NCBI GenBank assembly: GCA_016342345.1 | Contig: JAEINO010000024.1 | Span: 1 to 52,391, forward strand | From: Pseudodesulfovibrio sp. | Lineage (GTDB): Bacteria; Desulfobacterota; Desulfovibrionia; Desulfovibrionales; Desulfovibrionaceae | DNA: 52,391 nucleotides | Direction: 5' to 3' | Shown here: piece by piece, positions 749 through 19,082 of the stretch | How the letters are laid out: each line of letters starts with the position of its first letter | How positions within the stretch are numbered: position 1 is the first letter of the stretch | Program-made: the position numbers and the translations under genes | The notes under the pieces: model-generated | Databases searched by the model: none | Told to the model about the DNA's origin: nothing | The model's input: only the letters and a program-made list of their open reading frames with translations

Positions 749-3700
749 ATGACTAATATATCAAGCCCTGTTTCAACTGGTGGTGCTGGTCCTAGCCTAG
801 AAAGCCGGGTTGGAGCATTTTATCTAGCTTCCGTACTTTTAAATTCATCAATTCATGGGCTTCGGAATGTTAAGGCTAAAAAGATACGATTGCAGAGAGC
901 ATATGAAGGTAATGCTCTTGATGACGTAATCGTTGACGGTGTTACTGCAAATCAAAAAAAAGCCACTCTTTCTTTGCAAGTAAAACGCTCATTAACCTTT
1001 TCTGATAACGACAAATTTAATGAAGTGATGGAGCAGTGTTGGGAAACATATACTGCTTCATTTTTTGTTAAAGGTTATGATCGGGTTGGAATTGGTCTAG
1101 GTAAAATCAACGGGACTATCAATGCCGGGCACGATGTTTTGCGTTGGGCCAAATCAAGTTCTTGTGCGGAGGATTTTTTCGATCGTCTTCAGACAGATGG
1201 TCTTTCAAATCAGACGATGCAATCCTTTGAAAAAACTATACGGACATGCGTAAATAAAGCCGCAGGCAGAAACCTTTCAGACGAAGATCTATATGTTTTT
1301 TTAAATCATTTTGAAGTCATATATTTTGACTTTGAGGCAGGCAATTCATCCGCACTTAATACAATTCTTAATACTGAATTGAAGCAGGCTCTTATCACTG
1401 AAGAGGAAGGAAGAGCAGGGGACCTGTGGAGGGCTCTCGTTGATCTTGTTGATGATGCTAAGTCTACAGCTGGGAGCATGAACAGGGCAACGTTGGTTAC
1501 TCTTTTACATGCTGACTTTCGCTTGGCTCACCTTCGCTATCTAGAGCCTGATGTTGATAAGGTCACCAGGCGTTCTCGGGGTGTTCTTGATAATATCGAG
1601 TCAACCCTAGGTGGGATCTATTTACCGCGAAATGACCTTCAGGAAAATGTTCTGGAAGCAATAGGTTCTTCAAGTTTTATAGAGATAACTGGAGATCCTG
1701 GCTGCGGGAAGTCCTCGTTGTTAAAGGCTATTGCCCAAAAAAAGTTAGAGGAAAGCCCAGTTATAGTTATCGACGTGAGTCGGCCTATTTTTTCAGCAAG
1801 CTTTCAGGGGGCAGAGCAGTACTGGAATTTAGAAAACACCTTTGAAGAACTGCTTCCTGAATTCAGCCGCATTGATTCACCATGCATGTTTATAGATGCA
1901 ATTGATCGAGTATCTGATGCATCTGGGTGGGCATCGGTTAATGAAATTATTCGAGTTGTTAGAAATAGCAAAGAAGGGGAAAAATGGGTCATCGTAGTCT
2001 CAGCCCGAGCAAACACTTTAGATTATAGAATTAACTTGACGCCTGAGGCTGTTGGGCCCTCTCCCTTTCGAGTGTCAATTCCTTTGCTGACTGATGACGA
2101 GATTGAATCAATTGTCGCAGCTTATCCTTCACTCAGTAGTATTCTTGGGCAGGATAGTGCTGTTCAATCCCTTGCCCGTAGGCCGTATTTGCTGTCCCGC
2201 CTGCTGAAGAGCAATGCATTAAATAATCAATCCAGGAAGCTACCAGCGTCAGAAGTCGATTTAATGATTGAGATGTGGACTGATGATGCAGGACATGGAG
2301 ATGATTTTCGTAGGAGGCGTCAATTTACATTGGTCCAATTGGGGAATGCGAAGCTGTCGGTGGATCAAAGTACTTTAACCCATTTTGATGCTTCTGATTC
2401 AAAAGCGTTAGGATCTTTGGTCTCAGATGATATTCTTAGAGAGGACAAAGTTTCTGGTGTTGTTGAATTTACACATGATATTCTTGAGGACTGGACACTT
2501 TGTCAGGTGTTGAACATTAAAGGGAACTCTCTCCCTTCGACCTTACTCTCTAATAGACAACCAGTCTGGTTAACGGATGCAGTTCAGTTGTTAGGGCAGT
2601 GGAAATTGGAAAAGGGAGAGACTATTGGCGATTGGAAGAAGTTGCTTTCTCTAGTCGGAGAAAAGGAGCTTGATCCGCGTTGGCAAAGATCCGTTTTAGT
2701 CGGACCATTGAAATCAAGTCAGGCACTGCCGTCTCTTTATAGAATTCAAGAAATGCTTTTGGAAGGGGATGCTCAGTATTTTGAAGATGTATTGGTAGCC
2801 TTACGAACTATTGAAGTCATACCGAATGAAAAGTGGTTACATCCTGATTTTGATAGTGAGTTTGAAGATAGCACGCAGAAAGAATTAGCTTATCTATTTG
2901 CATATCCACAACTACAGACGTGGAGACCTTTTCTAACCTGGCTTAACAAGGTCATACCCCATATCCCGCCAAGACTTGTGGATGAGACAAGTCGTTTCCT
3001 TATGGTCCTTCCAAACTCATACGGTTTGATACCTGATTGGTTATCCGAGTCGGTAGTAGGGTGGGCATTAGATTGGCTTGGTGTTTTAGAGATAGGTCGT
3101 TCGTGGAAAGCAGATGACCCGGTGCAGATGCGCTACAAGAGTTTAGAGTTAGAAGGATATCATGGTGGCGAGGAATTGCAAAATCGCCTTCGTCGTATTG
3201 TGTTTGCTTGCGTAAATGAATGTACTTCGAAAGTGGCCCAATATGTGCGTAACATCTCATCAAGTAAACACCATTCTGGAACTGAGTTTCTCATAAAAAA
3301 TGCGAACCACCTAGTCGAAGGAATACCTGAGCAATTAGTAGATTCTTTGATTGAGGTAATGATCCAAGAAGAACGTCGTGATGAATTCTCGAGTTCCATA
3401 AGGAATAATTTAGGTATTTCTGAGGATCGACATTTCTTTAACGCATCTCATCTGAACCCTCCGTTTTTGTCACTATTACAGCACAATACTGCTGAAGGGC
3501 TTAGGCTTCTTAACGCGTTGAGTGCGAGAGCTGTTGGCTGCTGGCGGGATCGGTATAAGCGTGAAAGATCTGGAACTCCACTACCTGTGAAGATTGATTT
3601 TCCGTGGGGAGCGCGCGAGTTTTGGGGGCATGCAAATCAGTATACGTGGTTTCGAGGGAACGGTGTTGGGCCTTATGCTGTGCAATCTGGTTTAATGGCC

Positions 3701-5923
3701 TTAGAATTTTGGATGGAATCGCAAGTTGAGGAAGGGAGAGATGTTGAAGAGTTATTCAAGCTTGTTCTTGAGAACAATAATTGTGTTGGGGTTCTTGGGG
3801 CGTGTGCATCTATCGCGCAGAAATATCCAGAAAAATCATTTGATGCAGCACTCCCTTTGGTCACTAATCTATATATCTGGCGTTGGGATATCGAAAGGTT
3901 AGTTGGAGATAACAGTCCTTCAAATTTGATTGGCTTTGGGCATGGTAAAAAGCAGGTTGCAGATCGAAACCAGCTTCCTCACAGGCAACTTGAAATACGT
4001 CATCTTATTCCAAGATACCTATTTCATGAAGATAGTCGCTACCGAGAGTTATTGGTCGAACGAGTTGAGAAGGTAGTAACAGGCGACCTTCCCTTTGAAT
4101 TTGAAGAGCAAAGAAGCAATCCAAAACTAATCGATGAAATCAATGGTCATATTTGCCAAATGCAAGCAATGGCTTCGCCAGAGAATTATCAAAGCGAAAA
4201 ACTTAAGGATAAGTCAGGAGTGTATATTTATTACGTCCCTCCTGGAGAATTAATGGATGACTATGTGGAGGTTCATAAGGATCACTCAGAATTGAATGAA
4301 TATATTGGGCTCGGCATGTGGGCAACTGAGTCTCTCCAAAAAGGGGGCGTTGATGATAGGTATTCATTTGATAAAGCCTATGAAGAAGCAAGAAGGCTAG
4401 ACTCTGGAGATGTTTTTAAGGAAGGGCGGTCAACTGAATTTAAAATTTCAAATATGCAGGTAGCTATTGCTGGAGTTGCGGCAACGCTGTTGATGTTTGA
4501 AGAGAATCTTTCAAGTGACAAGCTGGAGTGGGCTAGAGGAATCGCTTGGGATGCTTCAAATATGCCATTGAGTGAGGAGGATCAGCTTTTTAAGTATTCG
4601 GAATTGTCGCTTCATCCCATCCCATTTGGCATCCAAGGTTTAGTCTCATTGGCTAAACGGAATCTCGCTACCCAAGATGAACGTGAATGCCTTATTGCGA
4701 TGGCCTGTCATCCTCTAGATGGGGTTGTAAAATCTTTGTATAAGCATCTTTCCGGATGCTGGGAACAGGATTACTTACTGTGTTGGCAAGTTCTTGTACT
4801 GGCAATTAAGATGTCGGTTATCCCAAGAGATTATATCTATTGGAATAATGATTCAGAACGATTTCAAAAGAGAAATTTATGGATGAAAAAGCTCTGGCAA
4901 GAAGTCTTAGCTGATTTTCGCGCCACTACTTATTCGCGTTTACCGAGTATCCCTGAGAAATATGTCTTGGATCCGTCGATCACACCTCCTGATCCAGAAT
5001 GTGGGCAGTTCCGGCTAGCTGATCAAACATTTTGTTTTGACATTGTAGCCCGTAGTTTATTTTTTCAACCAATTGAATACCTTCTTGGGGATGATTTACG
5101 GCAAGAAAGTGTTTTGAAGATGTTTCATGAACTGATGGCCTGGACTCTTATGGATTGTACTCCCCCTTGGGGAGATAGGCGCGGGTATGGTGGGAGTGGC
5201 CCCGCTTATGAATGGCAATCACAATTTATGGACTGGTGTGGACTTTTTAGTCGGCAACTCACGACGAGCCAAGTTGAAGAATTAATCATTAAACCAATTT
5301 CGACTGTATGTATGGGGCGGGAGGCCGATCTTCTGGATAAGATTTTATATGGGTTTGCTAAGTACCGATTTTCGCAGTCTGAGCTTGTGGATCAAGAGAC
5401 CCTCGAACAATGGATGATGTTGTCCAATTTAATGTTTGAGCATTCAAGGGCTGCGGGATCTCGTAATGATAATTCCGTAGGGATGCGCTATGGGGCGAGT
5501 GTTTGCATTGCCTTGTTTAGTCCTCATCGAATGCCTCTTTTTGAAGCGCCATGGCCCTCTTTAGAGCGAATGATGCCTCATATTGATCGATGGGTGAAGA
5601 CGTTCGCAGATTCACCCGCTTATTATGGAGTGTTGTTGGTGTTTTTGAATAAGGCAGGGTTCTCTCTGGTACCAGAGCCTGCATTCGAGTGGCTTCTTGA
5701 TGTGTCGGAATCCAGGAAAGACGACAAGAACTTTTGGAGAGCATCGTCTAACGCCTCGATGACAGTTGATATTGTCGAAAGAGCCCTCTCCGAAGCGCTG
5801 CTTACCCCACAGCATGGTATGTTAATTGAACGTTTGATTCGGATGATGGATATTCTTATCGGTCATGGTGAGAGGCGGGCTGCCCAAGTACAGCAAAAGC
5901 TCGCGAAGCTGATGTGTCACTAG
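749..5923 (+). CDS. Giant STAND-type NTPase with predicted N-terminal nuclease domain (Avs-like defence protein)
   Basis: 1,724 residues. The N-terminus (about 1-200) resembles DUF4297/Cap4-type PD-(D/E)XK nucleases: E18, then LDDVIVD (D58, D59) and a QVK core (Q77-K79) ending a hydrophobic strand. A P-loop NTPase follows: Walker A GDPGCGKSS (315-323) and Walker B FIDAID (381-386), with further AAA/STAND-like sequence to about 600. The remaining ~1,100 residues are helical with many W and L residues and no motif I can name. In Avs-type STAND proteins this region is the sensor. Known members detect conserved phage proteins, assemble, and activate the N-terminal nuclease. That this one does so is inference. 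The start at 749 gives an N-terminus consistent with the family, though its ribosome site is weak (CGAG). Upstream lies a terminator, downstream a small Cys-pair protein. Confidence 0.75.
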   Translation: MTNISSPVSTGGAGPSLESRVGAFYLASVLLNSSIHGLRNVKAKKIRLQRAYEGNALDDVIVDGVTANQKKATLSLQVKRSLTFSDNDKFNEVMEQCWETYTASFFVKGYDRVGIGLGKINGTINAGHDVLRWAKSSSCAEDFFDRLQTDGLSNQTMQSFEKTIRTCVNKAAGRNLSDEDLYVFLNHFEVIYFDFEAGNSSALNTILNTELKQALITEEEGRAGDLWRALVDLVDDAKSTAGSMNRATLVTLLHADFRLAHLRYLEPDVDKVTRRSRGVLDNIESTLGGIYLPRNDLQENVLEAIGSSSFIEITGDPGCGKSSLLKAIAQKKLEESPVIVIDVSRPIFSASFQGAEQYWNLENTFEELLPEFSRIDSPCMFIDAIDRVSDASGWASVNEIIRVVRNSKEGEKWVIVVSARANTLDYRINLTPEAVGPSPFRVSIPLLTDDEIESIVAAYPSLSSILGQDSAVQSLARRPYLLSRLLKSNALNNQSRKLPASEVDLMIEMWTDDAGHGDDFRRRRQFTLVQLGNAKLSVDQSTLTHFDASDSKALGSLVSDDILREDKVSGVVEFTHDILEDWTLCQVLNIKGNSLPSTLLSNRQPVWLTDAVQLLGQWKLEKGETIGDWKKLLSLVGEKELDPRWQRSVLVGPLKSSQALPSLYRIQEMLLEGDAQYFEDVLVALRTIEVIPNEKWLHPDFDSEFEDSTQKELAYLFAYPQLQTWRPFLTWLNKVIPHIPPRLVDETSRFLMVLPNSYGLIPDWLSESVVGWALDWLGVLEIGRSWKADDPVQMRYKSLELEGYHGGEELQNRLRRIVFACVNECTSKVAQYVRNISSSKHHSGTEFLIKNANHLVEGIPEQLVDSLIEVMIQEERRDEFSSSIRNNLGISEDRHFFNASHLNPPFLSLLQHNTAEGLRLLNALSARAVGCWRDRYKRERSGTPLPVKIDFPWGAREFWGHANQYTWFRGNGVGPYAVQSGLMALEFWMESQVEEGRDVEELFKLVLENNNCVGVLGACASIAQKYPEKSFDAALPLVTNLYIWRWDIERLVGDNSPSNLIGFGHGKKQVADRNQLPHRQLEIRHLIPRYLFHEDSRYRELLVERVEKVVTGDLPFEFEEQRSNPKLIDEINGHICQMQAMASPENYQSEKLKDKSGVYIYYVPPGELMDDYVEVHKDHSELNEYIGLGMWATESLQKGGVDDRYSFDKAYEEARRLDSGDVFKEGRSTEFKISNMQVAIAGVAATLLMFEENLSSDKLEWARGIAWDASNMPLSEEDQLFKYSELSLHPIPFGIQGLVSLAKRNLATQDERECLIAMACHPLDGVVKSLYKHLSGCWEQDYLLCWQVLVLAIKMSVIPRDYIYWNNDSERFQKRNLWMKKLWQEVLADFRATTYSRLPSIPEKYVLDPSITPPDPECGQFRLADQTFCFDIVARSLFFQPIEYLLGDDLRQESVLKMFHELMAWTLMDCTPPWGDRRGYGGSGPAYEWQSQFMDWCGLFSRQLTTSQVEELIIKPISTVCMGREADLLDKILYGFAKYRFSQSELVDQETLEQWMMLSNLMFEHSRAAGSRNDNSVGMRYGASVCIALFSPHRMPLFEAPWPSLERMMPHIDRWVKTFADSPAYYGVLLVFLNKAGFSLVPEPAFEWLLDVSESRKDDKNFWRASSNASMTVDIVERALSEALLTPQHGMLIERLIRMMDILIGHGERRAAQVQQKLAKLMCH

Positions 5924-6726: not shown

Positions 6727-7644
6727 TTAACCAATACACTTGTCGAATAAATCATCGATTTTTGCTAAATCTTCTTCAGCTTCATCTAACTCTCCGAATA
6801 TAGTAGAGTAAAGTTCATCCAACTTCATTGCGTGGCCACTAAGCCCAAGCGTCCCATCATCAAAATCGATGTGTCCAGCACGAATCAATGTCTCGAATTC
6901 TTGTCTGAGGTTTTCTTCAGAGGCTTCAAATTCGAACAAAAAATCTCCCAACTCAACGGAAGAGTCTTGCGCACCGCTTAGCTTTGTAAGAGTTGTTAAC
7001 ATGCCCCATTCATATCCAGATATAGTACTTCTGACCTTCTGGCATTTTTCTATCAGTTCTGGATAGTTGCTCTCAATGTACTCAGCATTAACGATGTTTT
7101 CATCGACATCTTCCTCCTTCTCTTTGGGGAGGTTTTTAATCTGGTCTTTAAAGTATTTTTCAAATCCATCCATCCAGTTTTCTTGAATCATTTCCGCGAG
7201 TTTTTCTCCACGCCAAAAAGTTATATTGACTGACTCGCCCCTATTTCTGGCTTTGCCAACCATCTTTCTGGCGTTTTCGTTAAAGTCTCCAGTTATGGCT
7301 ATGATGCATCTTGAAATAAAATGTTTTGATCGACCGTCAAGATCATGGATTTCTTTTGCAAACGCTTCCTCTGCTTGGTTCTTGACCTCTTTAACTGTGT
7401 TTTTTCCGCCCCCACTCCCATATTTCAAGTCACCCATTTTGAATTGGATGCCATGGTACTGCTTTTCATTATCTGGCTCAGATAGGGTGTAGTACTCTAA
7501 ATCAATTCCAATCTCATCGGGCCCACCAGTAAATCTGACCCCTTTCAATCCTTTTGCTTTCAAAGTTTGGACAAAAATATCTTTAGCCATTTTATGTTCA
7601 TGCAATGACTCTAGCAATGTTATGATTTGATCTTCTCTCAGCAT
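6727..7644 (-). CDS. PD-(D/E)XK-like (Mrr/REase-fold) nuclease, putative defence effector
   Basis: 305 residues. The N-terminal half has the pattern of restriction-endonuclease-fold nucleases: GGPDEIGIDLEYY, with D48 in a GID-type strand, then YHGIQFKMG with Q67-x-K69, giving a D...QxK active site. The middle (about 110-150) continues with a strand like those in Mrr-like domains (RCIIAITGDF) and a WRGEKL segment. The C-terminal 130 residues are acidic and helical with no motif I can name. The start at 7644 was chosen because AAAGGAG lies 6 bases ahead of it. The alternative ATG at 7662 has no ribosome site and sits almost at the promoter. It has its own promoter and is followed by a small membrane protein gene. 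Confidence 0.6.
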   Translation of the reverse strand: MLREDQIITLLESLHEHKMAKDIFVQTLKAKGLKGVRFTGGPDEIGIDLEYYTLSEPDNEKQYHGIQFKMGDLKYGSGGGKNTVKEVKNQAEEAFAKEIHDLDGRSKHFISRCIIAITGDFNENARKMVGKARNRGESVNITFWRGEKLAEMIQENWMDGFEKYFKDQIKNLPKEKEEDVDENIVNAEYIESNYPELIEKCQKVRSTISGYEWGMLTTLTKLSGAQDSSVELGDFLFEFEASEENLRQEFETLIRAGHIDFDDGTLGLSGHAMKLDELYSTIFGELDEAEEDLAKIDDLFDKCIG

Positions 7645-7665
7645 TATCGCTCCTTTAATCATTTT

Positions 7666-7784: not shown

Positions 7785-9848
7785 TTAGTTTAACACGACT
7801 CCTTCTTTTTCCGCTTTTGCAAGTATAGCAACTAGTAGTTTGCATTGCTTCTCACTTGGAATTTTCATTGGAATTTTTTGAGCAATTCTAAGCAGGTTGG
7901 CCTCTTTGGGGGATAGGAATTTCCCTTTTAACCCTTCCTTTAGAACCATAGCCCATTGGGTTGATGGGATTTCCACAACCTGTTTTTGGGCATTGATGCC
8001 ATCATCAATCTTTTGCGTTGTTTTCGCGTCTTTGGCCTTAGCTGCCTGTTCTTTGAAAGAAACAGTATCATCCCAAAACTCGTTGGGTAAGGCTTCCTCT
8101 AGCTCTGGAATGATGGTTTGCAACCTCGCCCAACAGGCTTCCTTCTTGCACCACTCACCTATATCGGAAATACCTTCCGGCGGGTGGGTGATGTCATCAT
8201 TTACCAGCTTCGCGGTGATGGTGATGGAATCCAGTAGAGAGGCGTATACTTCTTGTTCGTTCCAGATCTTTAAGTAGTCTATTGCAACCTTTTTTCGTTT
8301 ACAGACTTCGCTTAATGAAGCCAGAGTGTTGGCAAGGATTTTCGCTCTGTGACCGCCATCGTACCACGGTTGAGCTGATATCAGTTTTTCTGTGCGGCGG
8401 AAGATGATTCCACGAGCAATAAGTCTCTGGTAGAAAAATTCATTAAAATTGTCTGGAGACAGAACCCATTCTTTGCCTATGCGTTTAGCGAACTGTGCAA
8501 AGTTTTTTTGGGCTCCAAGACAGACCCACTTAGGATGTTCATCCCAAACATTTTCGAATTTGGCGAGATCTGTTTTGACGAACATCTGGTTACGTGGGTG
8601 TTCGGCTTTGAAACGTTTTTTCTCTGTTTCGGTCAGTTTGGTTTGTTCATCCGCATATTGTCCTCGCGCTCTCTCATAAAACCATTTTGTTTCGCGCTGT
8701 TCACCATCTTTGGCAGGTACATATTTTCTTCTTGAGAAGCCTTCAATTCGGATGTGGAATGGATGGTTGGAAAAGAAGTCGGACGCACTGACTTTATTCT
8801 GCGTGTTCGCATATTCTGATATAAGAGGAACAACTGTTTCGCTTTCTTCGCTGTCAATGACTGACAGTTTCATTTGAACAAATACTTTCTCCAGGGATAC
8901 CTCGTCCTTATTCTTGTTATATGTATGGAATAAGGATGCGGTTGTTTGCCCTCCGTTGACGATCTGGAGGTCTTTTATCTTGGTGATTTGGAGGCCCTGA
9001 TTATTTGATCCTGTCTCAACTGACTGGGCTGTGGCGGTAATGCCATTATTGTATGCGAAGAACATGTCGGGTTCGTTGGTGATAGTATTCCTGATGCCTT
9101 TGTTTACGTTCCCTCGTGCTTGAAGAAACGTCCTAACGTTTTGCTCAAGGAGTCGGGCTCCATGTTTGTCGTAAAGTTTAGAGAGGATATCTCCAGGCAT
9201 GACAATCAGGTATGATGGAAATGTGTCTTCTCCAAGATGTGCAGGAAGGCATGATATTCCTGTTCCAAATAGTTCTAGTAGATCTAAGTTCAGAGGCTCT
9301 TTGTGCCCCTTTGAACTGTCCTGGCGATACAATCTGGACATGTCCCAAATGTGGTACGTCATCGGGATGACCGATTCATCCGGTGCATCATAGGACTTGA
9401 ATTGGTCACTAAGAGTTCGTTCTGAAAGCAGATAGAAATTTACACGGCGAATACTTTTTTTTCTGTCTGCTATCTGGCGAGACAGTCCATACTCAGGAGT
9501 GGTTTCATCGAGGATTTCGTATAGGCATTTGTCGCGGCTTGATTCAAAGAAATTAGTAACACGTTTAAAGATGGCCTTAACATCTGTTTTTGTTAATGAA
9601 GCCAACTTGTCTCTGCATTCAAAATCAGCGATCAGGAGGTTGAGAACGCCTTCTTCATCCAACCAGTATCCGTCGACACGAATACCCAGTGCTCGGTAGT
9701 GGCAAAATTCGAAGCCGTCCATGACATTGGCTTCTACCAGGTCCTGAGCAACCAACTCAACAAACGATTCAAGCTGAAAGCTGCTATTGGCTTCAGCATC
9801 AGCCATAAACCCTTGACGAAAATCATGGTAATATTCTTGAACAGACAC
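7785..9848 (-). CDS. AIPR-family protein (abortive infection phage resistance), last gene of the methylase-MORC-Z1 operon
   Basis: 687 residues. It shows the AIPR (PF10592) core: VRTFLQARGNVNKGIRNTI (238-256), FFAYNNGIT (263-271) and QIVNGGQTTASL (295-306). The N-terminal region with RVDGY (57-61) and LLIADFE (71-77) could be a degenerate nuclease fold; that is tentative. The start is a GTG with AGGAGG 6 to 8 bases upstream, and the gene begins 14 bases after the DUF4420 gene. AIPR proteins occur in phage-resistance plasmids and in the Mza system with MutL-like, Z1 and DUF4420 proteins. Their biochemical activity is not settled. Family assignment is strong, role is inferred from neighbours. 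Confidence 0.85.
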   Translation of the reverse strand: MSVQEYYHDFRQGFMADAEANSSFQLESFVELVAQDLVEANVMDGFEFCHYRALGIRVDGYWLDEEGVLNLLIADFECRDKLASLTKTDVKAIFKRVTNFFESSRDKCLYEILDETTPEYGLSRQIADRKKSIRRVNFYLLSERTLSDQFKSYDAPDESVIPMTYHIWDMSRLYRQDSSKGHKEPLNLDLLELFGTGISCLPAHLGEDTFPSYLIVMPGDILSKLYDKHGARLLEQNVRTFLQARGNVNKGIRNTITNEPDMFFAYNNGITATAQSVETGSNNQGLQITKIKDLQIVNGGQTTASLFHTYNKNKDEVSLEKVFVQMKLSVIDSEESETVVPLISEYANTQNKVSASDFFSNHPFHIRIEGFSRRKYVPAKDGEQRETKWFYERARGQYADEQTKLTETEKKRFKAEHPRNQMFVKTDLAKFENVWDEHPKWVCLGAQKNFAQFAKRIGKEWVLSPDNFNEFFYQRLIARGIIFRRTEKLISAQPWYDGGHRAKILANTLASLSEVCKRKKVAIDYLKIWNEQEVYASLLDSITITAKLVNDDITHPPEGISDIGEWCKKEACWARLQTIIPELEEALPNEFWDDTVSFKEQAAKAKDAKTTQKIDDGINAQKQVVEIPSTQWAMVLKEGLKGKFLSPKEANLLRIAQKIPMKIPSEKQCKLLVAILAKAEKEGVVLN

Positions 9849-9862
9849 CGAGCGACCTCCTG

Positions 9863-10822
9863 CTAAAATAAGCTTTCCATTTTACATTTGAAGTCTGTGA
9901 TATTTTCCAGTTTGATTTCATATCCAACACGAACGATTCCTTCCGGTAGATCGGATCGAATTAATCGCGGGAACCCCTCTGAAAGTTGATATGGTTGGTT
10001 ATTCACTATCTGGAATCTGGGAGAGTCATACTCAAGAAGCTCAATATATCCTGCTGCTGCCAGCTTTGCTGAAAATGTTTCGATTGCTTCACTTGCTGTT
10101 AACTCATCAAATATCTGCTTTACGACACCATTAAGTGACAAAGCCCCTTCTGTGTTCTGGGATATGAGTCTGAAGGTTGCCAGGTATAGGTTGTCACACT
10201 GTGTCTCAAGCTGGTCTTCTGAAGATATACGAATAGAGCTTCTCTCATGACCCGAGAGTGATTTGATTTCTACCGCAGTGTTTTCATATATGAAATCCTG
10301 GTGAGAACCATCGGGGCCACACCACGCTTCAATCGCTAAGTCCTGTGGAAACTTTTTTTGGTACAGGAGTCTGAGAAACTGTAGTTCAGCAAATAGACCT
10401 CTGACTTCTTCGGCGGAAAGAAGTCGCATTCGTTGGCCCGTAAAGAATGCCTTCCAACGTTTGATGTGGGTAAGGGCTATTCCTAATGATTCTTCGGAGG
10501 TTTGCGCAGGCTCTAAAGAAGAAACGAGAGTGTTGCAAAGCCCAAGGAAAAGATCTGTATCTACATGTTTTTCCAAGGCAATAATGAGTCGCTGTTTGGC
10601 TTTTCCGGTCGACTGCCTTAGGTCTATATCAATACCCTTAACCGAGGTTGTGTTTGCCTTATAATAATCGGAGTGGTCTCCATCCAGCTCGACAATAAAT
10701 AGACATCGACCAGCTTCATCTTTTCCCCAGAATATAGGAGTGCGCCCTTTGCTGAGGATTTGCCGAACATGGTAATCTCCGGTCGGATTTTTTATTTGAT
10801 CCCATGGATTATTCTTACTCAT
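9863..10822 (-). CDS. DUF4420 PD-(D/E)XK motif protein, predicted nuclease subunit
   Basis: 319 residues from the ATG at 10822. A longer open frame extends upstream but lies inside the Z1 gene. This ATG overlaps the Z1 stop codon (ATGAGTAA), the usual sign of translational coupling. A restriction-like active site is visible: E146 in FAELQFL, D176 in SHQDF, and E185-x-K187 in AVEIKS. That fits the PF14390 family annotated as putative PD-(D/E)XK proteins. In MORC/Z1 restriction loci this subunit is the likely DNA-cleaving component. The N-terminal 130 residues and C-terminal 110 have no motif I can assign. Confidence 0.85.
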   Translation of the reverse strand: MSKNNPWDQIKNPTGDYHVRQILSKGRTPIFWGKDEAGRCLFIVELDGDHSDYYKANTTSVKGIDIDLRQSTGKAKQRLIIALEKHVDTDLFLGLCNTLVSSLEPAQTSEESLGIALTHIKRWKAFFTGQRMRLLSAEEVRGLFAELQFLRLLYQKKFPQDLAIEAWCGPDGSHQDFIYENTAVEIKSLSGHERSSIRISSEDQLETQCDNLYLATFRLISQNTEGALSLNGVVKQIFDELTASEAIETFSAKLAAAGYIELLEYDSPRFQIVNNQPYQLSEGFPRLIRSDLPEGIVRVGYEIKLENITDFKCKMESLF

Positions 10823-13475
10823 CGTAATCATCCTCTTCGTCAGGGCTATCAAAGATGTCACCATGCATTTTGGTAACCCATATCGTGTTGGCAACCACTT
10901 CCACTTCAGTTTCGTAATTCCCTGGTGGGAAGCTGATGCCAAAAGCCGGTATTCGGTCTTGAAAATTCTCTTTACCCACAGGACCCAGGACATGAATCAT
11001 CAAAAGAGGCTTGTCCCGAACAGTTCGATAATGAAAATCTGATGGTTTTTTACCGTCTTTTTCAGCATCTTCTTTAGCTTGTTGACGTTGGTTTTCAGTC
11101 AATCCGAGCCCCTCGTCCCCTCGACTGGCAACACGGAACTTGCTTGCCTGCCATGCGTCTCCACTTTTGTCCGGTATACGCTTTGCGCTAGATCTTCCCT
11201 GGGTTCCGAGTTGGTAGTTTTGTTCATCTTGTCCATTCCCTTCTATTGATATTAATAGAATATCTGCAACAGGGTATTGTTCGGAAATGGCTCTTAGGTA
11301 GTTTACTGCAGCTAATTTTTTTTCTGCGAATGAGGGGTGAGTTAGGAATCTGGTTAAAAAATCCTCGATCGTCTCAAATGGTACATTTTGGAATGTCCAT
11401 CCTTTTGTGGTTGGAATAATGTCTTCGCCAAAACCGTCCTCCCAATGTTGAGCGATCAGCTCTTCATTTTTACGGTTGATCGTTTCATCTGTGGGAAGAA
11501 TGTAGCTTTCAACAAGTCTGCCACTGAAGTTGTAATTTACTTTGATTTTTTCGCCAGCTCTCATCTTGTTTGGAGCTGTGATTAATAAGCTGTCTTCATG
11601 CGCTTTGACATAAAGACCAAATTGTTTGGGGCTTAGTCTGGCTCGCCTCATCCTTTTGATCTGCATTCGCAACTCTTCAGATGCTTCAGCTATATGGGCA
11701 TACCAATTGATTGAATCCGGGGCTAAGTGGACTTTGCATAGATCTTCGAAGTCTGGGCGGTAACCAAACCACCTCCCCATCTGCATGAGGGTGTCATACA
11801 TGCGGGTGTTGCGATACATATAGCTTACGCATAAGCCTTCAATGGTAAGGCCACGCGAAAGACTCAGCCCTCCAACTGCGATAGCTGTAAGGCTGCTTCC
11901 TTCAAGCTCATATTTTTTATAATCCAACGCTTCATCTGATTTGCTGTTGACTACAAAAAGTCTTAGGCTTTCGGTCGCATCAAAGAGTGCCAATTTGACC
12001 GCATCCCAACCGAAGCCACAGAGAGCGTATTCCTTCAAATATATGGCTTTAAGCTCCTGCATGTAGTTGTTTTGAGAAGAAACATTCTCCGGCATTGCGT
12101 AGTTGGTCTTTACAGCGTCTTTAAGTTTACGAACAAAAACACTTATGAAATCTCTCACGCGATTTTGAATTACGACAAAACGGGAAACATTGACCATCAT
12201 GGAGCAATGCTTATTGGATTGTCCTCGAAGATTACGAATCGTTCTGGCTAGGATGAATTGGTTAATGGCTGTGTAAAGGCTGGGTGGCAGACCTGTTACC
12301 GGATCATCTTTTAAGTGCTTGAAAGGAAGATAGTTTTCGCAGTCAAAAATTGGAGCTAGAATTTTTTTACTTTTTTCTTCTTCAAGAAAAACTTTGTTAG
12401 GTCCAAAGTATGTAGTTGGTGCATCGAGACAATATATGAAATCTCGTGGAAACAATTCGTCGTACACATCTTCGTCATATGCTTCCGGGTTAATGAATAT
12501 GTTTGCAAATGGGGTGGCAGTATATCCAATGTAACAGGACTTTGCGAACAGCCCTAAAATGCTTCTAATTTTTGAATTGGTTTTTGTTGGATCAAGGTCT
12601 GGTTTGTTTGTGTTGATTGAGGCGTTGTCAGCTTCATCATCTATTAACAACATTGGTACGTCAGAGATTCTACCATCTCCCTGAGCATTCATTTCTTTTA
12701 ACCAATTATAAAGAGTATTCAGCGTAGAGACATTTTTCTTAATAACAAGGATGATTGGCTTGCTGAAGTCGTTGATTTTCCATCCACTTCGGTCTGCTGT
12801 GTCTTTGCGAAAATCATCGTGGATATTTGTCAAAGTCGCTGGGTTCGGATAGTTCGGTGTTAATCCTACGCCGACAGGTACTCGATTCTCTGGATCGCTT
12901 GATCTTCCTACGAACCCTTCATCAATCCTTTCCTGTGTCTGTTTCCGGAGGTTGTTGTGAATGCCTGCGATTACGATAATGAATTTGTACCCGGCATCTG
13001 CAGCTTTCGCGATGACTCCCATATAGTTCGCTGTTTTCCCGGATTGAACATGTCCAATAACCAGTCCCCGTCTATCCCAAGAGCCTTCGCTGGTTGGATC
13101 TTGAAGGTGCCCCAGAATTTTGTCTCCTACATCGCTTAACGATTGGATGACATCGCTGCCCCAACGTTCTTTTTTGAGGAAGTCCGAGTATGCTTCAGAA
13201 TAAGTCCATAGAATGTCCTTTCGCTTGATATGCCATTCATCATCATGGTCTGCTTCCGCATCGACTAGGGAAACTCCTGTTCCCATGCGGGTATCAATCG
13301 CAACCATAACTTCAGTAACGATGGCCTCTATGTTACCAGTGAAGCTAAAGGCTGCTGCTAGTATCTTTGCTTTTTCTTCAACATCGCTCCTTGTTGGGGT
13401 CGAGGGCAGAAGGGCTAGAGCGGTGATAAGAGAGCTGGCGAAATTTTTTTCGTTTTCTACTTGATTCTGATGCAT
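10815..13475 (-). CDS. Z1-domain ATPase (SF2-helicase-like) of a MORC/MutL restriction or Mza-like system
   Basis: 886 residues. Motor motifs in order: Walker A GHVQSGKT (141-148), IVIAGIHNN (167-175), DEAD-like LLIDDEADNAS (277-286), and GYTATPFANIF (318-328). The Z1 domain (PF10593) follows, with AVGGLSLSRGLTIEGL and MQMGRWFGYR carrying the motif V/VI arginines. The start is the ATG at 13475, overlapping the stop of the GHKL ATPase gene (TGATG) with AAGGAG 8 bases upstream; a TTG one codon earlier is also open. Z1 proteins are known from comparative genomics as ATP-dependent motors next to MutL/MORC ATPases, methylases and REase-fold proteins. A remodelling or translocating role here is inferred. 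Confidence 0.9.
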   Translation of the reverse strand: MHQNQVENEKNFASSLITALALLPSTPTRSDVEEKAKILAAAFSFTGNIEAIVTEVMVAIDTRMGTGVSLVDAEADHDDEWHIKRKDILWTYSEAYSDFLKKERWGSDVIQSLSDVGDKILGHLQDPTSEGSWDRRGLVIGHVQSGKTANYMGVIAKAADAGYKFIIVIAGIHNNLRKQTQERIDEGFVGRSSDPENRVPVGVGLTPNYPNPATLTNIHDDFRKDTADRSGWKINDFSKPIILVIKKNVSTLNTLYNWLKEMNAQGDGRISDVPMLLIDDEADNASINTNKPDLDPTKTNSKIRSILGLFAKSCYIGYTATPFANIFINPEAYDEDVYDELFPRDFIYCLDAPTTYFGPNKVFLEEEKSKKILAPIFDCENYLPFKHLKDDPVTGLPPSLYTAINQFILARTIRNLRGQSNKHCSMMVNVSRFVVIQNRVRDFISVFVRKLKDAVKTNYAMPENVSSQNNYMQELKAIYLKEYALCGFGWDAVKLALFDATESLRLFVVNSKSDEALDYKKYELEGSSLTAIAVGGLSLSRGLTIEGLCVSYMYRNTRMYDTLMQMGRWFGYRPDFEDLCKVHLAPDSINWYAHIAEASEELRMQIKRMRRARLSPKQFGLYVKAHEDSLLITAPNKMRAGEKIKVNYNFSGRLVESYILPTDETINRKNEELIAQHWEDGFGEDIIPTTKGWTFQNVPFETIEDFLTRFLTHPSFAEKKLAAVNYLRAISEQYPVADILLISIEGNGQDEQNYQLGTQGRSSAKRIPDKSGDAWQASKFRVASRGDEGLGLTENQRQQAKEDAEKDGKKPSDFHYRTVRDKPLLMIHVLGPVGKENFQDRIPAFGISFPPGNYETEVEVVANTIWVTKMHGDIFDSPDEEDDYDE

Positions 13476-14950
13476 CAAAACTCCTTCTGAATGAATTCAT
13501 CAACAAGGTGCATATGGTCATCGAAAAGACGGGTTGAACGCAGGACTTCCTTGAAGTCTTCCGGTGTAGACACAACGTCAGGAACTAGAGCTGCCTTGAA
13601 GACTTGCAGCTTGTTCGCGATGTCCTTTTCTTCTGGTTCATTGGAACTCATACTTTTAGGGCTGGTGGAGTAGTCAGAGTAAATCATCTCAAGAGGTAGA
13701 GATGAAGGGATCGCAGTGAGTAGCATTCTAAGTTTAGCTGTTTTTTCTTGGTCAAGGATACCGACAAGTGTTTGCACAAGAGGGTGTTCATAGTTCAAGT
13801 CGTAGCGGATACATCCTTGATCTGCATATCTTTCCCAAATAGGAGCTTCGACTTCATCAAATAACTTTTCCCCTCTACCCCTATGAACTCTCGTGCTTCG
13901 TGTGGATATTCGAGATATGATCTGTCGCAGCCTGTTGCGAACAGGCAGAGGAGGACGGGCTCTAGATTTTTTTATATCTATAGTCCAAGCTTCATCCAGA
14001 CTGTTCTGGAAATCGATCTGGACTCTTGCGAGTTTTGTAGCTTCTCCTTTAGGAATGAGGCGGAACCAGTCTCCCCAGGCCATCAGTCTGCCATTGCGAT
14101 AAATGTATGCTCCCTGATTTGAAATAAAATCACTTCTGTTTTTATAGAAGTCGTAATCAGTTGCTGACAACTTGCTGTGATGAGGGAGGATGTATGGTTG
14201 CATTTTTACCCGCGAGCCATTGACCCTGACGATTTCTTCCGGGAGGGTTTGTGTCGTGCTATAACTACGGCAAAAGGGGTCGAAATATGTAACTTTGTGC
14301 CCATTAATTGAAATGGATAGGTTTTTGTGGTTTTTTATTTCACCGGAAAGGTAGCGATGAAAAACTAAAGCAAGATGCTTTTCCACAGTGCTTAACTTTT
14401 CACTTACTAATTCCTCTCGCTTTATGCCTGTTTCGTCTTCAAACAGTCGATCCAGCTTGCGCCAGATAACAATGGTTCCATCATTCTGAATTGTATCAAT
14501 GTAGGGGAGATGTTTTATTTCAGAATCCTCTAATTCATTGACTATCCAATCGTCTTTGCGGTCGACTAGATCGAGATCCCATTCAACAGAGCTGCTTTTC
14601 CCGTCTTTTATGGATGCCACTGTCAGGCGTCTGCACTGGGAGAATGAAGCCGTCTTTAAGCCAAGTCCGAACCGTCCTAGATCATGGGGTGCTCTTTCTT
14701 CTTCCGGGTTGGTTGCACCATGTCTCATGGCTTCCATGACCTCTCCCGAGTCCATTCCGTCACCGTTGTCGATAATCACTAAGGTCGGGCTTTCCTGTGT
14801 GGGGTCGTAGATTATCTCAACCATTGTGGCGTGTGCAGTAATGCTGTTGTCTATCAGGTCTGCAACAGCTGTTTCCAGCGAGTAGCCTAGGTCTCGCATT
14901 GATGCAGATAATGAAGAAGCACTTGGGCGAAGTCTGCGTTCTCGTGCCAT
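13475..14950 (-). CDS. GHKL ATPase of the MutL/MORC type
   Basis: 491 residues from the ATG at 14950, which has AAAGGA 9 bases upstream; the frame stays open further but runs into vsr. The Bergerat ATP-binding motifs are clear: ETAVADLIDNS (26-36, with N35), DNGDGM (61-66), and the lid LGRFGLGLKTASF (91-103). These order it with the MORC/MutL-like ATPases found in restriction-modification operons (Iyer, Abhiman and Aravind, 2008). The C-terminal half, with charged helices, would dimerise or contact partners. It begins 2 bases after the vsr stop and overlaps the Z1 start by one base. Role: ATP-dependent clamp or switch that licenses the nuclease, by analogy with MutL. Confidence 0.9.
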   Translation of the reverse strand: MARERRLRPSASSLSASMRDLGYSLETAVADLIDNSITAHATMVEIIYDPTQESPTLVIIDNGDGMDSGEVMEAMRHGATNPEEERAPHDLGRFGLGLKTASFSQCRRLTVASIKDGKSSSVEWDLDLVDRKDDWIVNELEDSEIKHLPYIDTIQNDGTIVIWRKLDRLFEDETGIKREELVSEKLSTVEKHLALVFHRYLSGEIKNHKNLSISINGHKVTYFDPFCRSYSTTQTLPEEIVRVNGSRVKMQPYILPHHSKLSATDYDFYKNRSDFISNQGAYIYRNGRLMAWGDWFRLIPKGEATKLARVQIDFQNSLDEAWTIDIKKSRARPPLPVRNRLRQIISRISTRSTRVHRGRGEKLFDEVEAPIWERYADQGCIRYDLNYEHPLVQTLVGILDQEKTAKLRMLLTAIPSSLPLEMIYSDYSTSPKSMSSNEPEEKDIANKLQVFKAALVPDVVSTPEDFKEVLRSTRLFDDHMHLVDEFIQKEF

Positions 14951-14952
14951 GA

Positions 14953-15369
14953 TTATATCCTTTCCAGCTGGTTGCGAACTTCGGTCAGGGTCCTTTGTGG
15001 TGCTTCTTTCAACTGGCATTCCCAAACAATGATGACGTTCCAGCCAAGCTCTTCCAGCTCCGCACACTTTCTTTTGTCTCTTTCAACCGTTTCAGCAAAC
15101 TTGTTTAACCAGAAAGATGTTCGCGTTTTGGGTGTCGTGGCTTTGGGGCACTTCTGATGTCTGTGCCAGTAACAACCGTTCACAAAGATAACGGATTCGT
15201 ATTTCTTAAGAACGATGTCCGGGTGACCTGGGAGTTTTGGGTCATGAAGACGGAATCTAAATCCTTCCCTATGAAGAAGAGAGCGCAGTATGAGTTCTGG
15301 ACCAGTGTCTTTCCCTTTTATGCGGGACATGTTCCAGCTTCTTCGTTCTTTGGAAATCGTGTCAGTCAT
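14953..15369 (-). CDS. vsr: Vsr, very short patch repair DNA mismatch endonuclease
   Basis: 138 residues, the usual Vsr length. The signature region is intact: the N-terminal MSRIKGKDTGPE (14-25), PGHPDIVL with catalytic D51, and FVNGCYWHRHQKCPK (62-76) with the catalytic and zinc-binding His and Cys residues. Vsr nicks beside the T of T:G mismatches made when 5-methylcytosine deaminates, protecting the methylase recognition site. It sits 2 bases after the cytosine methyltransferase, its standard partner, and 2 bases before the MORC-like gene. Confidence 0.95.
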   Translation of the reverse strand: MTDTISKERRSWNMSRIKGKDTGPELILRSLLHREGFRFRLHDPKLPGHPDIVLKKYESVIFVNGCYWHRHQKCPKATTPKTRTSFWLNKFAETVERDKRKCAELEELGWNVIIVWECQLKEAPQRTLTEVRNQLERI

Positions 15370-15371
15370 TT

Positions 15372-16916
15372 CTATGAATCCATGTTGTCCAGGACTTCAT
15401 GTACTATTTCAGCAATTTGTTTAGCCAGGTATGGAGGAACAGCGTTGCCAACCTGATGATATTGAGCTGTTCGTGGCCCTTCAAATTTGTAGTTGTCCGG
15501 GAAAGATTGAAGTCGGGCAGCCTCCCTGACAGACAGGCTGCGACACTGTGTTGGGTCATAGTGAATGAAATAATGACCGTCTTTAGAAATATGAGATGTT
15601 ATTGTCGTAGACACCTGATTGGCCAACTGTACCCTGAAACGATCAGAGAACATTTTTCCTTTGCGGGCTAACTCCACATTCTTGTGGTTGGGGAGAAGGC
15701 TGACAGGGAAGTCTTTCATCTTTGGACTTTCCCCAATGGCGCATCCATAAGTCGCTGTGAACATATAGCGACCTATGTCCGAAGTCATATGAGACCTTGA
15801 TTCATGGGATGTTAGGGTAGTGAGATTGGGGTCATAAAAGCTTTTTAGAAGAGGGTGATCACCAACAATTGCTCCCGGATATTTTTCGGAACTCCTTTCT
15901 TCAGGGAATTTGAGAGCAAGTTGTTTTTTTAATTCTCTATCAACCTTTCTTGCAATGCCGGTGTCATCCATCTCCGATTCAAGGCTTTTCATCGAAAAGT
16001 TTTCAATGATCTCTCTCCAACGTGATGTGACATCAGATTCTCTCGACAATCCGCTTCGAATTGGGGGAAGATTTCCTATCACTTCTCTTACGGTTGGTGG
16101 TTGGTGGGGGTGAAGTAATCTTGGCTTAACTTTAATGTCGCTTCTGATGCCAAGAATGAACATTCTGTGACGAGCCTGGGGTACTCCATACTCTTCTGCT
16201 TTAACCAGAAAGCTACGAGGGTCGATAGAATTAGTTGGTTTTCCAGCTTTTGAAAAAGAGTAAAGGTTGTAGGCTAGTCCGTTTTCGCTACTGTTGAGGG
16301 CCAATTTGGGCTTTGTTAAATCGGAAATGATTTTCCCTATGATTGGTTCCCCGTTAACTTTTGCAGAGAGGATTCCTTTTACGTTCTCCATCACAAAAAC
16401 AGGGGGCTGATGGTCGACAATGATTTTTAAGTACTCGCGATAAAGAAAGTGCCGCTCATCGTTGTCGAAATCTGGATTGCCCATCATACGAGATCGCCCA
16501 ACTAGGGAGTAAGCTTGGCACGGAGGGCCTCCTATTAAGGCCCATTTGTTTTTGCGTGATAATTTTTTGTGAAGGATTTCTTTCACGAGATTATGAGACT
16601 CATCTCCTAGTGAGATTCTGAGTGCGCTTCTCGATGCTGCTTCAAACTGAGGCTGGTGTAGGTCAAAAAGATCATCTTTTGAAATGGTTCCTTTGAGATA
16701 CTTGTAGTAGGCTTCAGGAACTTTGCCTTCAGGGAAGCTTCGGAAAAAATGGCGGAGTAAAAGTGTGCTGTGTGAATGCTCATCTCGTTCAATTGAGGCC
16801 AGGCTATGGAATAGTGCTTTGCCATCATGATGGGATGCTGAGGAGAATCCCTCACCAAGTCCGCCAGGGCCAGCAAAGATGTCAATTATTGGATAGGTAT
16901 TTTTATGCAATGGCAT
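15372..16916 (-). CDS. DNA (cytosine-5) methyltransferase, first gene of the six-gene defence operon
   Basis: 514 residues. C5-methyltransferase motifs are in order: I, DIFAGPGGLGEGF (12-24); IV, GGPPCQAYSLVG with catalytic C133; VI, MENVKG (176-181); VIII, QARHRMFILG (247-256); then a variable target-recognition region; IX-X near the C-terminus with REAARLQSFPDNY and QVGNAVPP. It should modify host DNA at a specific sequence that I cannot predict. No ribosome site is evident ahead of the ATG. The 270 bases upstream are AT-rich and must hold the operon promoter. The presence of a methylase and Vsr with the downstream MORC/Z1/DUF4420/AIPR genes argues for self/non-self discrimination by methylation. 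Confidence 0.93.
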   Translation of the reverse strand: MPLHKNTYPIIDIFAGPGGLGEGFSSASHHDGKALFHSLASIERDEHSHSTLLLRHFFRSFPEGKVPEAYYKYLKGTISKDDLFDLHQPQFEAASRSALRISLGDESHNLVKEILHKKLSRKNKWALIGGPPCQAYSLVGRSRMMGNPDFDNDERHFLYREYLKIIVDHQPPVFVMENVKGILSAKVNGEPIIGKIISDLTKPKLALNSSENGLAYNLYSFSKAGKPTNSIDPRSFLVKAEEYGVPQARHRMFILGIRSDIKVKPRLLHPHQPPTVREVIGNLPPIRSGLSRESDVTSRWREIIENFSMKSLESEMDDTGIARKVDRELKKQLALKFPEERSSEKYPGAIVGDHPLLKSFYDPNLTTLTSHESRSHMTSDIGRYMFTATYGCAIGESPKMKDFPVSLLPNHKNVELARKGKMFSDRFRVQLANQVSTTITSHISKDGHYFIHYDPTQCRSLSVREAARLQSFPDNYKFEGPRTAQYHQVGNAVPPYLAKQIAEIVHEVLDNMDS

Positions 16917-17185
16917 GGAGTTGTTTTATAGATTAAAAAATAGTGTAATACTGCGATGTTTTTATACTAAAGCCTACTGAGTGCCTAGAATTAGTGTCCG
17001 CGATTGTTTGTTCCTACGATATGTGTTTGTAACTATATGATTTTTAACTGTGTAGATTGGTCTGGCAATTGTCAAGCTTCAGTCTGTTTTTAACCCTGTT
17101 TGAGATATGTAAAATGGCCGGAGCTTCCGTCCCGGTCTTCATGCTAATTCCACAAAATAGATGCTTCGCTATAAGGTCCCACCAA

Positions 17186-17803
17186 TCACTTCAAGGGCCT
17201 TATTCGGTCGTCCGAACAACCGGAACCATCTCTGTCGGGAATTTGCTCTGTCAACTCGATGATGCCGGTCAGCATCGCTTGGACATGTTCCAGCCCTTGC
17301 TTGTCTACTTCATCTCGTAGATTGCAAATGAGCTTCGCATCATCCGTAGTCACCGGATATAGTCCTGTGACATCAAGTGCCAGTTTGTGTCCGACTGGAT
17401 GAATTCCAGAAATAGTCTGTATTTCTTTGTCGGAGTCCGCCAGAGCCAGTCCCGTACCCTGGACCGTTAGAAACTGCCCGTCATTCCTGCGAAGAATTTT
17501 CATTCCGTACATGACCACGCTATTGATAGGTACAATCCCAGTTAGTTTGTGGGGCCATGTATCCCCTTCATAAACTTGTTCATTGATAATGGACTCATAT
17601 TCATCAGATATCAGTACATCAACGCCCCCAGCCCTGAATGCTTTGCTTACGCCGTGTTTGACTCCTGCCCACACCTTGACGACTACGATGTCGTCTGCCC
17701 ATGTTGTTCCGCTTTCAAAAGTAATGCGGGGAACCAGCTGGATCACACTATCCTGTTGCTTTGAGGCATCTATAGGTGTCAAAATTTCCCTGATATTAAA
17801 CAT
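17186..17803 (-). CDS. Hypothetical protein, orphan
   Basis: 205 residues with a strong ribosome site (AAAAGGAGAGGGG) 3 to 10 bases before the ATG. The protein looks like a mostly beta-stranded globular domain followed by a helical tail (about 155-190). It has no signal peptide or membrane segment, and ends in a polar tail with SGCSDD. I do not recognise a family. It lies between the methyltransferase operon (270 bases away, same strand) and the tRNA-edge repeat, so it is probably cargo of the island. A relation to the defence genes is not shown. Confidence 0.6.
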   Translation of the reverse strand: MFNIREILTPIDASKQQDSVIQLVPRITFESGTTWADDIVVVKVWAGVKHGVSKAFRAGGVDVLISDEYESIINEQVYEGDTWPHKLTGIVPINSVVMYGMKILRRNDGQFLTVQGTGLALADSDKEIQTISGIHPVGHKLALDVTGLYPVTTDDAKLICNLRDEVDKQGLEHVQAMLTGIIELTEQIPDRDGSGCSDDRIRPLK

Positions 17804-17890
17804 TTCCCCTCTCCTTTTTTGTCAGTCAGATAGTAAAATGACATCATATCAAGGATGGATATTTCAACTGTTTACAACAATTTTTTAAAC

Positions 17891-17927
17891 GAGGATTTGA
17901 ACCTCCGATCTCTGCGTCTCGAACGCA
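17891..17927 (-). repeat. Copy of the tRNA-Pro 3' half (candidate attachment-site remnant)
   Basis: This 37-bp segment matches 18442-18478 of the intact tRNA-Pro gene at 35 of 37 positions in the same orientation. It covers the anticodon arm, variable loop and T arm but not the acceptor stem. The mismatches are at 17908 and 17919; the latter changes the anticodon position from CGG to CGA. Duplicated tRNA 3' halves are typical products of integrase-mediated insertion. Confidence 0.65.
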
Positions 17928-17990
17928 TGGGAAGATTTCATCATCAAGATAAACATCGCTTCGCTTCAATTTGTAGCATTCACCATTCAT
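17928..17990 (-). pseudogene. Possible tyrosine-integrase scrap abutting the tRNA fragment
   Basis: On the minus strand an ATG at 17990 opens a short frame reading NGECYKLKRSDVYLDDEI. This resembles the first catalytic box of phage-type tyrosine recombinases (R-x-GE-x2-x-LK-x-x-DVDLE), with the expected Arg replaced or lost. The frame then runs straight into the tRNA-Pro copy. No other integrase boxes are found, so if real it is a small deletion remnant. The match is short and judged by eye. Confidence 0.35.
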
Positions 17991-18111
17991 GGTTATGGCC
18001 CCTTTTAGAGAACCATACTCGATGGATGGCGGAGTCAACTTGGATTTTGGGTGCGTATAGTTCGTATAATGCCGAGCATATTCGCACCTTTTTCGCACCT
18101 CGCACCCCAAA

Positions 18112-18157
18112 AGAAAACCCCTCGCACCTCATGTTTTTGAGGAGCAAGGGGTTACTT
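18112..18157 (-). terminator. Terminator after tRNA-Leu
   Basis: On the minus strand AACCCCT (read from 18153) and AGGGGTT (to 18116) form the outer stem, with an inner CCTCA/TGAGG stem, followed by TTTTCTTTT. It begins 7 bases after the tRNA 3' end. Confidence 0.7.
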
Positions 18158-18160
18158 TTC

Positions 18161-18248
18161 TGGTGCCGGGAGCGGGACTTGAACCCGCATAACCACAAGG
18201 ATTGCAAGATTTTAAGTCTTGTGTGTCTACCAGTTCCACCATCCCGGC
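18161..18248 (-). tRNA. tRNA-Leu (UAA)
   Basis: 88 nt including encoded CCA. The acceptor stem GCCGGGA pairs with TCCCGGC. The anticodon stem is CAAGA/TCTTG around loop CTTAAAA with anticodon TAA. It has the long variable arm expected of class II tRNAs and a T arm with GGTTCAAGTCC. It has its own terminator downstream, and lies at the inner edge of the accessory region. Confidence 0.95.
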
Positions 18249-18385
18249 ACTTTACTATTACATCCACCGTTTTGGTGGTGTCTTTTAATATAAACCAGGT
18301 CTTTTAAGTACCTGGAATGAGGGGAGGCTCTGTGGAGGATCAGGGTGAAGGTTTGCGATAAATGGGGACAAAAAAAGGGGACAAA

Positions 18386-18420
18386 GAAAAAAGCACCTAC
18401 AGCTTCATGCTGTAAGTGCT
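18386..18420 (-). terminator. Terminator after tRNA-Pro
   Basis: On the minus strand GCACTTACAG (18419-18410) and CTGTAGGTGC (18402-18393) pair around a CATGAAG loop and are followed by TTTTTTC. It lies about 10 bases past the tRNA-Pro 3' end and separates it from tRNA-Leu. Confidence 0.8.
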
Positions 18421-18429
18421 TGATTTCTT

Positions 18430-18506
18430 TGGTCGGGATGAGAGGATTTGAACCTCCGGTCTCTGCGTCCCGAACGCAGCGCTCTACCAGACTGAGCCAC
18501 ATCCCG
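18430..18506 (-). tRNA. tRNA-Pro (CGG)
   Basis: 77 nt including encoded CCA. The acceptor stem CGGGATG pairs with CATCCCG. The anticodon arm CTGCG-TTCGGGA-CGCAG carries CGG at 18472-18470. The T arm holds GGTTCAAATCC. The 3' half is duplicated at 17891-17927, so this gene, or a relative, has served as an integration target. Confidence 0.95.
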
Positions 18507-19082
18507 ATTGCGTGAGAGGAGTGACTAGCTTACGGGTTTTAAAAAGGCAAGATAAAATTATATTTTTTATGCTAGGCGGGCGTGTTTAAATTTTTGTTTG
18601 TTCTTTGGTTATGGAGGCGTAAGCCTGTTTTTTGTCTGTCTTTGTTTATGTCATTTTATTGTTTGAGTTGGTGCTGTTAAAGGATTGAAGCCGACTCTGA
18701 ATAGATGAGCCGTGGGGTTGTAACAGGGATTGCTCTTGTGTGTAGTCGTTTTAATGCGTCCGTTTTTATATGAAATACTTTGCGACATTGAGTCATTTTG
18801 GATTGATAAATACGGTTGCTTTGTATGACACGAAGAGAACTTTTGGTTACGTAGAATTTGATTAGGGAACGTCCATCACGTGTCATATTTAATACGATTT
18901 TTGTCATGGATTCTATGCATTGTGTTTATTCCAAGATGATGGACAAAGGTATTAAATCCGCTTATCGTCCGGTATTGAATTTTATATTATAATTAATTTT
19001 CAAGGCTCATATCGGACTGTGGGTGCTCGCGATAATCCTGCACCAACCTGATTGTTGTGACGGGTCGAAAGGAGACGGATAC
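18507..19082. other. Intergenic region between tRNA-Pro and cheB
   Basis: 576 bases without a convincing gene. An open frame of 76 codons on the minus strand (18677-18907) has no ribosome site and an unconvincing composition. A TATAAT box at 18988-18993 lies about 90 bases before cheB without a good -35 partner. The chemotaxis operon promoter must be in this stretch. Confidence 0.5.

Follow-up and report, generated by a model that had tools for sequence, protein, structure and literature searches.

A six-gene methylase, Vsr and MORC operon of Pseudodesulfovibrio, a probable system against unmarked foreign DNA

The stretch of DNA analysed here, called the window, comprises 52,391 nucleotides from Pseudodesulfovibrio sp. 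(contig JAEINO010000024.1), and the system in question is an operon of six genes at 7785-16916, all on the minus strand, as the first-pass annotation had observed. From 5' to 3', the genes encode a C5-cytosine DNA methyltransferase of the Dcm type (15372..16916, 514 amino acids; PF00145, 2.5e-45), a Vsr mismatch endonuclease (14953..15369, 138 amino acids; PF03852, 5.2e-28), a MORC-family GHKL ATPase homologous to MzaB (13475..14950, 491 amino acids; PF13589, 1e-34), a Z1-type superfamily 2 (SF2) helicase homologous to MzaC (10815..13475; PF10593, 3.7e-74), a DUF4420 nuclease of the PD-(D/E)XK type homologous to MzaD (9863..10822, 319 amino acids; PF14390, 8.4e-67) and an AIPR protein homologous to MzaE (7785..9848, 687 amino acids; PF10592, 3.5e-101, and PF22879 AIPR_N, 2e-39). 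The methylase and Vsr had been described as a fused head of the operon; fusion is ruled out, since the two are separate open reading frames (ORFs), with Vsr beginning 2 bases after the methylase.

The methylase has the GGPPCQ, ENV and QxRxR-type motifs, whose columns are invariant in an alignment of 20 sequences, and its best PADLOC model is DrmMII (PDLC02649, 7.9e-92). The Vsr protein scores 137.7 bits against TIGR00632 (cut-off 97.85), and its profile matches the structure of E. coli Vsr, 1cw0, at 1.9e-47. The active site of Vsr, in E. coli numbering, is listed in the relevant part of PMC12907096 as E25, D51, H64, H69 and D97, and the alignment places E25, D51, H69 and D98 in the window protein.

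The MORC protein has the ATP motifs DxxDNS, DNGDGM and GRFGLG, and its profile matches structures of human MORC4, MORC2 and MutL. Its GAYIYRNGRLM segment fits 10 of the 11 positions of the MORC-specific motif GhXhhpXXRhl, as given in the MORC section of Iyer, Abhiman and Aravind 2008 (PMC2292703), the last position being M and not L, I or V. Two features from that section are found in the window: an SF2 helicase with a C-terminal DThhQXuRhFG, and a restriction-fold nuclease with E-D-ExK. The helicase motif columns are invariant or nearly so among 31 aligned sequences, and in DUF4420 residues E146, D176, E185-x-K187 and Q204 are invariant in 31/31 sequences. The DF..ExK of DUF4420 is present in 88/89 surveyed loci. 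A fold search with the AlphaFold2 model of DUF4420 (predicted local distance difference test, pLDDT, 91.8) gave no significant match, and its top matches, protein kinases with template-modelling (TM) scores of about 0.2, were dropped. AIPR is not recognised as a known enzyme: its AlphaFold2 model (pLDDT 84.4) has no PDB match at E <= 0.001. Weaker matches include ParB-N (E 0.17), two EndoMS/NucS mismatch endonucleases (2vld and 5gke, E about 0.6) and the Shedu nuclease SduA (E 1.7), all too weak to use. The N-terminal domain of AIPR has no conserved D/ExK, D59 being present in 24/31 sequences and D75 in 22/31.

A search with a MORC alignment provided 80 genome loci (the best 80 of 564 relatives) and 25 viral-contig loci which, with 6 plasmid loci and the window, form a survey of 112 rows. 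The four core genes, MORC, helicase, DUF4420 and AIPR, are complete in 89 rows (65 genome, 17 viral, 6 plasmid and the window). Within a first limit of 5 kb on the flanks, a C5-methylase match is present in 87/89 rows and Vsr in 70/89; where each flank extends over at least 2.5 kb (69 rows), the counts are 68 and 55. After the exceptions had been followed, an intact methylase is found in 88/89 rows and a Vsr ORF in 72/89, the remaining 17 having no Vsr ORF that was found; in one locus, L018, an additional Vsr-like stretch is seen by tblastn only. Two loci, L051 and L059, are ruled out as loci without a methylase, since full methylases lie beyond the 5-kb limit once more of each contig is fetched. 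In L051, a full methylase and Vsr lie about 5 kb past AIPR. In L059, the 3' fragment of a broken main-class methylase (17173-17535, L184) adjoins AIPR and a full main-class copy lies about 5.7 kb past it, an arrangement that would fit a duplication of the gene or its splitting by an insertion. In L086, the contig stops 254 bases past AIPR; the genome record yielded no C5-methylase. The first-pass annotation had made its reading depend on the methylase being conserved beside the other four genes, and the methylase is indeed near-constant. In L003, Vsr adjoins the methylase beyond 5 kb; a histidine-kinase-like gene and the gene next to it (2117-5496) lie between the methylase and MORC, an insert that resembles the paraMORC-linked two-component elements (PMC8011034).

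The position and kind of the methylase vary. It is 5' of MORC in 50 rows but on the 3' side in 37, and ten divergent methylases scanned are all PF00145. At 35% single linkage the methylases form six families, with 9 changes on the MORC tree (shuffled labels give 11), while a coarser scheme of two classes, in which missing methylases are counted as a state and L059 as divergent, gives 15 changes; the MORC tree is a quick tree in which 23 of 86 inner branches are open. Vsr accompanies the methylase in these moves, both being at the 3' end in 26 loci and on opposite sides in 3, and the partial correlation (r) of Vsr with MORC given the methylase is 0.09, a value reached by 63/500 permutations. 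As far as sequence comparison can tell, the operon has two parts, a methylase-Vsr module that is exchanged and a four-gene core that stays constant, and Vsr appears to go with the methylase rather than with the cutter.

The operon encodes one enzyme that marks DNA, one for repair and a predicted machine for cutting DNA, which probably attacks foreign DNA that lacks the mark. The methylase would mark the DNA, Vsr would act as its repair partner, and the core would cut foreign DNA that is unmarked. Because the methylase has been swapped repeatedly yet is almost never missing, it appears to be a dependency of the core, and a core without it probably harms its own host; we infer this last step, as well as the guiding by methylation and the control of cleavage. 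Several observations weigh against this interpretation. No whole core protein co-varies with the recognition region of the methylase, although a classical restriction-modification (R-M) enzyme would predict such co-variation, and the core proteins showed no domain that would read a sequence. AIPR, in which no catalytic motif was recognised, is a protein without assigned activity. Position 64 of Vsr is N in the window protein and H in E. coli Vsr; functional Neisseria Vsr proteins carry D there, according to the part of PMC12907096 that deals with them. The partial r of Vsr with DUF4420 given the methylase is 0.13, reached by 19/500 permutations, which leaves room for a weak direct link between Vsr and the core. 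The permutations ignore phylogeny; a paired test that takes it into account, of methylase class against Vsr, has nine pairs, is thus underpowered, and gives a median p of 0.25. If this interpretation holds, a methylase is indispensable but can be exchanged, Vsr serves it as repair partner, and the role of MORC in bacteria and the place of the system's sequence specificity become testable. Operons of this kind connect restriction in bacteria with the MORC family of ATPases, whose plant and animal members silence DNA.

The first-pass annotation, whose interpretation is supported in part, had read the operon as a methylation-guided form in which a MutL-like ATPase and a Z1 motor control cleavage. 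In a different interpretation, Vsr is cleavage machinery driven by that ATPase. Here Vsr would be the effector: MORC would license its nicking of incoming DNA, and methylase, Vsr and MORC would form the restriction step. Vsr does adjoin MORC in the window, at a distance of 2 bases, and a parallel with MutL and Vsr is drawn in the section of Iyer et al. 2008 (PMC2292703) cited above; in addition, the relevant part of PMC12907096 reports contact between MutL and Vsr in E. coli and a Vsr-like protein that is damaging once its methylase is lost. An effector, however, would not be expected to move with the methylase to the 3' side, to have so low a partial correlation with MORC or to leave 17/89 loci without a Vsr ORF found, and an intact nuclease motif is already supplied by DUF4420. 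Since it is the methylase, and not MORC, that Vsr follows both in location and in sequence, this role for Vsr is disfavoured and appears unlikely.

The genes around the operon do not share its conservation. An Avs4-like STAND-type NTPase (749-5923, plus strand, 1724 amino acids; PADLOC 1.3e-31; 151 bits with NCBIfam Avs4, whose cut-off is 1500) has a single relative, of 1719 amino acids, near the core genes in L071, and is not counted as a part of the system on that ground. An Mrr-like protein (6727-7662, minus strand, 311 amino acids; weak PF04471, 3.9e-05) lies 122 bases past AIPR, and an ORF of 205 amino acids (17186-17803, minus strand), for which Pfam (at E 0.1), PADLOC and NCBIfam (both at E 0.01) gave no match, lies just upstream of the operon; these two are not counted as parts either, since neither has a relative in the other 114 records searched. 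That the core is an Mza-type abortive-infection device independent of methylation, with the methylase and Vsr as a hitch-hiking defence-island pair, is very improbable, even though abortive infection gives AIPR its name, PADLOC also matches AIPR to AbiU (1.5e-26) and the adjacent Avs4-like and Mrr-like genes are defence-like, because a hitch-hiker would be missing far more often than this methylase, which is present in 88/89 loci, and the other neighbours in the window are not conserved (Mrr-like in 1/115 records searched, Avs4-like in 2 loci).

Among 36 genomes of the genus searched, a strong MORC match is present only in the window's own genome; four others have marginal matches (E 4.5e-4 to 0.001). 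A match of 33% at 1.4e-43 comes from one genome of the order. To the right of the island, the tRNA-Pro gene (18430-18506) and CheB are common to the six genus genomes fetched. The 3' part of tRNA-Pro recurs as a repeat of 37 bases with 95% identity (17891-17927 and 18442-18478, 551 bases apart), which suggests integration of the island at tRNA-Pro. The sparse distribution in the genus, the repeat and the tRNA-Pro and CheB genes of the relatives make the operon look horizontally acquired. The 25 loci of such operons on viral contigs (L090-L114) indicate that relatives may ride on prophages or prophage flanks.

The MzaABCDE system, reportedly that of Gao et al. 2020, is similar in that the window carries, in unchanged order, homologues of MzaB, MzaC, MzaD and MzaE; the match in composition proposed by the first-pass annotation is borne out by PADLOC (MzaB 7.6e-82, MzaC 1.3e-130, MzaD 1.8e-20, MzaE 4.9e-80). 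Strict membership is ruled out on three grounds. All four proteins score well below the NCBIfam cut-offs (MzaB 328/850, MzaC 503/1500, MzaD 127/420 and MzaE 337/1050 bits). The MzaA sigma factor is not at the locus: NF041931 gave seven matches in the window's genome, all below the cut-off and all on other contigs, and these are probably ordinary sigma factors, since the same search also matches in 10/14 control genomes. In the MORC tree of 89 rows, the window lies within an 18-row clade, and the sigma-bearing L004 and L108 form, with L103, a separate clade (Shimodaira-Hasegawa-like approximate likelihood ratio test, SH-aLRT, 100 for both); L110, the third locus with a sigma factor, is not complete and was left out. 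Unlike MzaABCDE, the window operon is headed by a C5-methylase and Vsr. In the sigma-bearing, Mza-type plasmid locus L004, a restriction endonuclease gene and a C5-methylase (16118-18538) directly follow AIPR; a nearby methylase is thus kept in the Mza branch too.

The cluster type is already predicted in print from gene neighbourhoods, in 2008 and 2022; no paper testing such an operon was found in the open-licence literature. The third MORC operon type of Iyer et al. 2008 (PMC2292703), as its section there presents it, combines MORC with the SF2 helicase and restriction-fold nuclease named above, often with a cytosine methylase and Vsr, and AIPR appears in the figure legend; the type is predicted in that section, and its function is not tested there. 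The CglI and NgoAVII R-M systems differ in their nuclease, which is of the phospholipase D (PLD) type with a B3 DNA-binding domain, whereas that of the window is DUF4420, and in the portion of PMC4267653 that describes them no MORC, DUF4420 or AIPR is mentioned; a PLD nuclease with a B3 domain is absent from the nine window proteins scanned. Another close system is the type II putative defence system of Miller et al. 2022 (PMC9523054), where the section defining the types assigns repair endonucleases to type I and not to type II, whereas the window carries Vsr. In the very-short-patch repair pair of E. coli, Dcm and Vsr, as in the window, Vsr adjoins a C5-methylase, but the window pair heads a defence operon and its Vsr has N64 in place of the H64 of E. 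coli.
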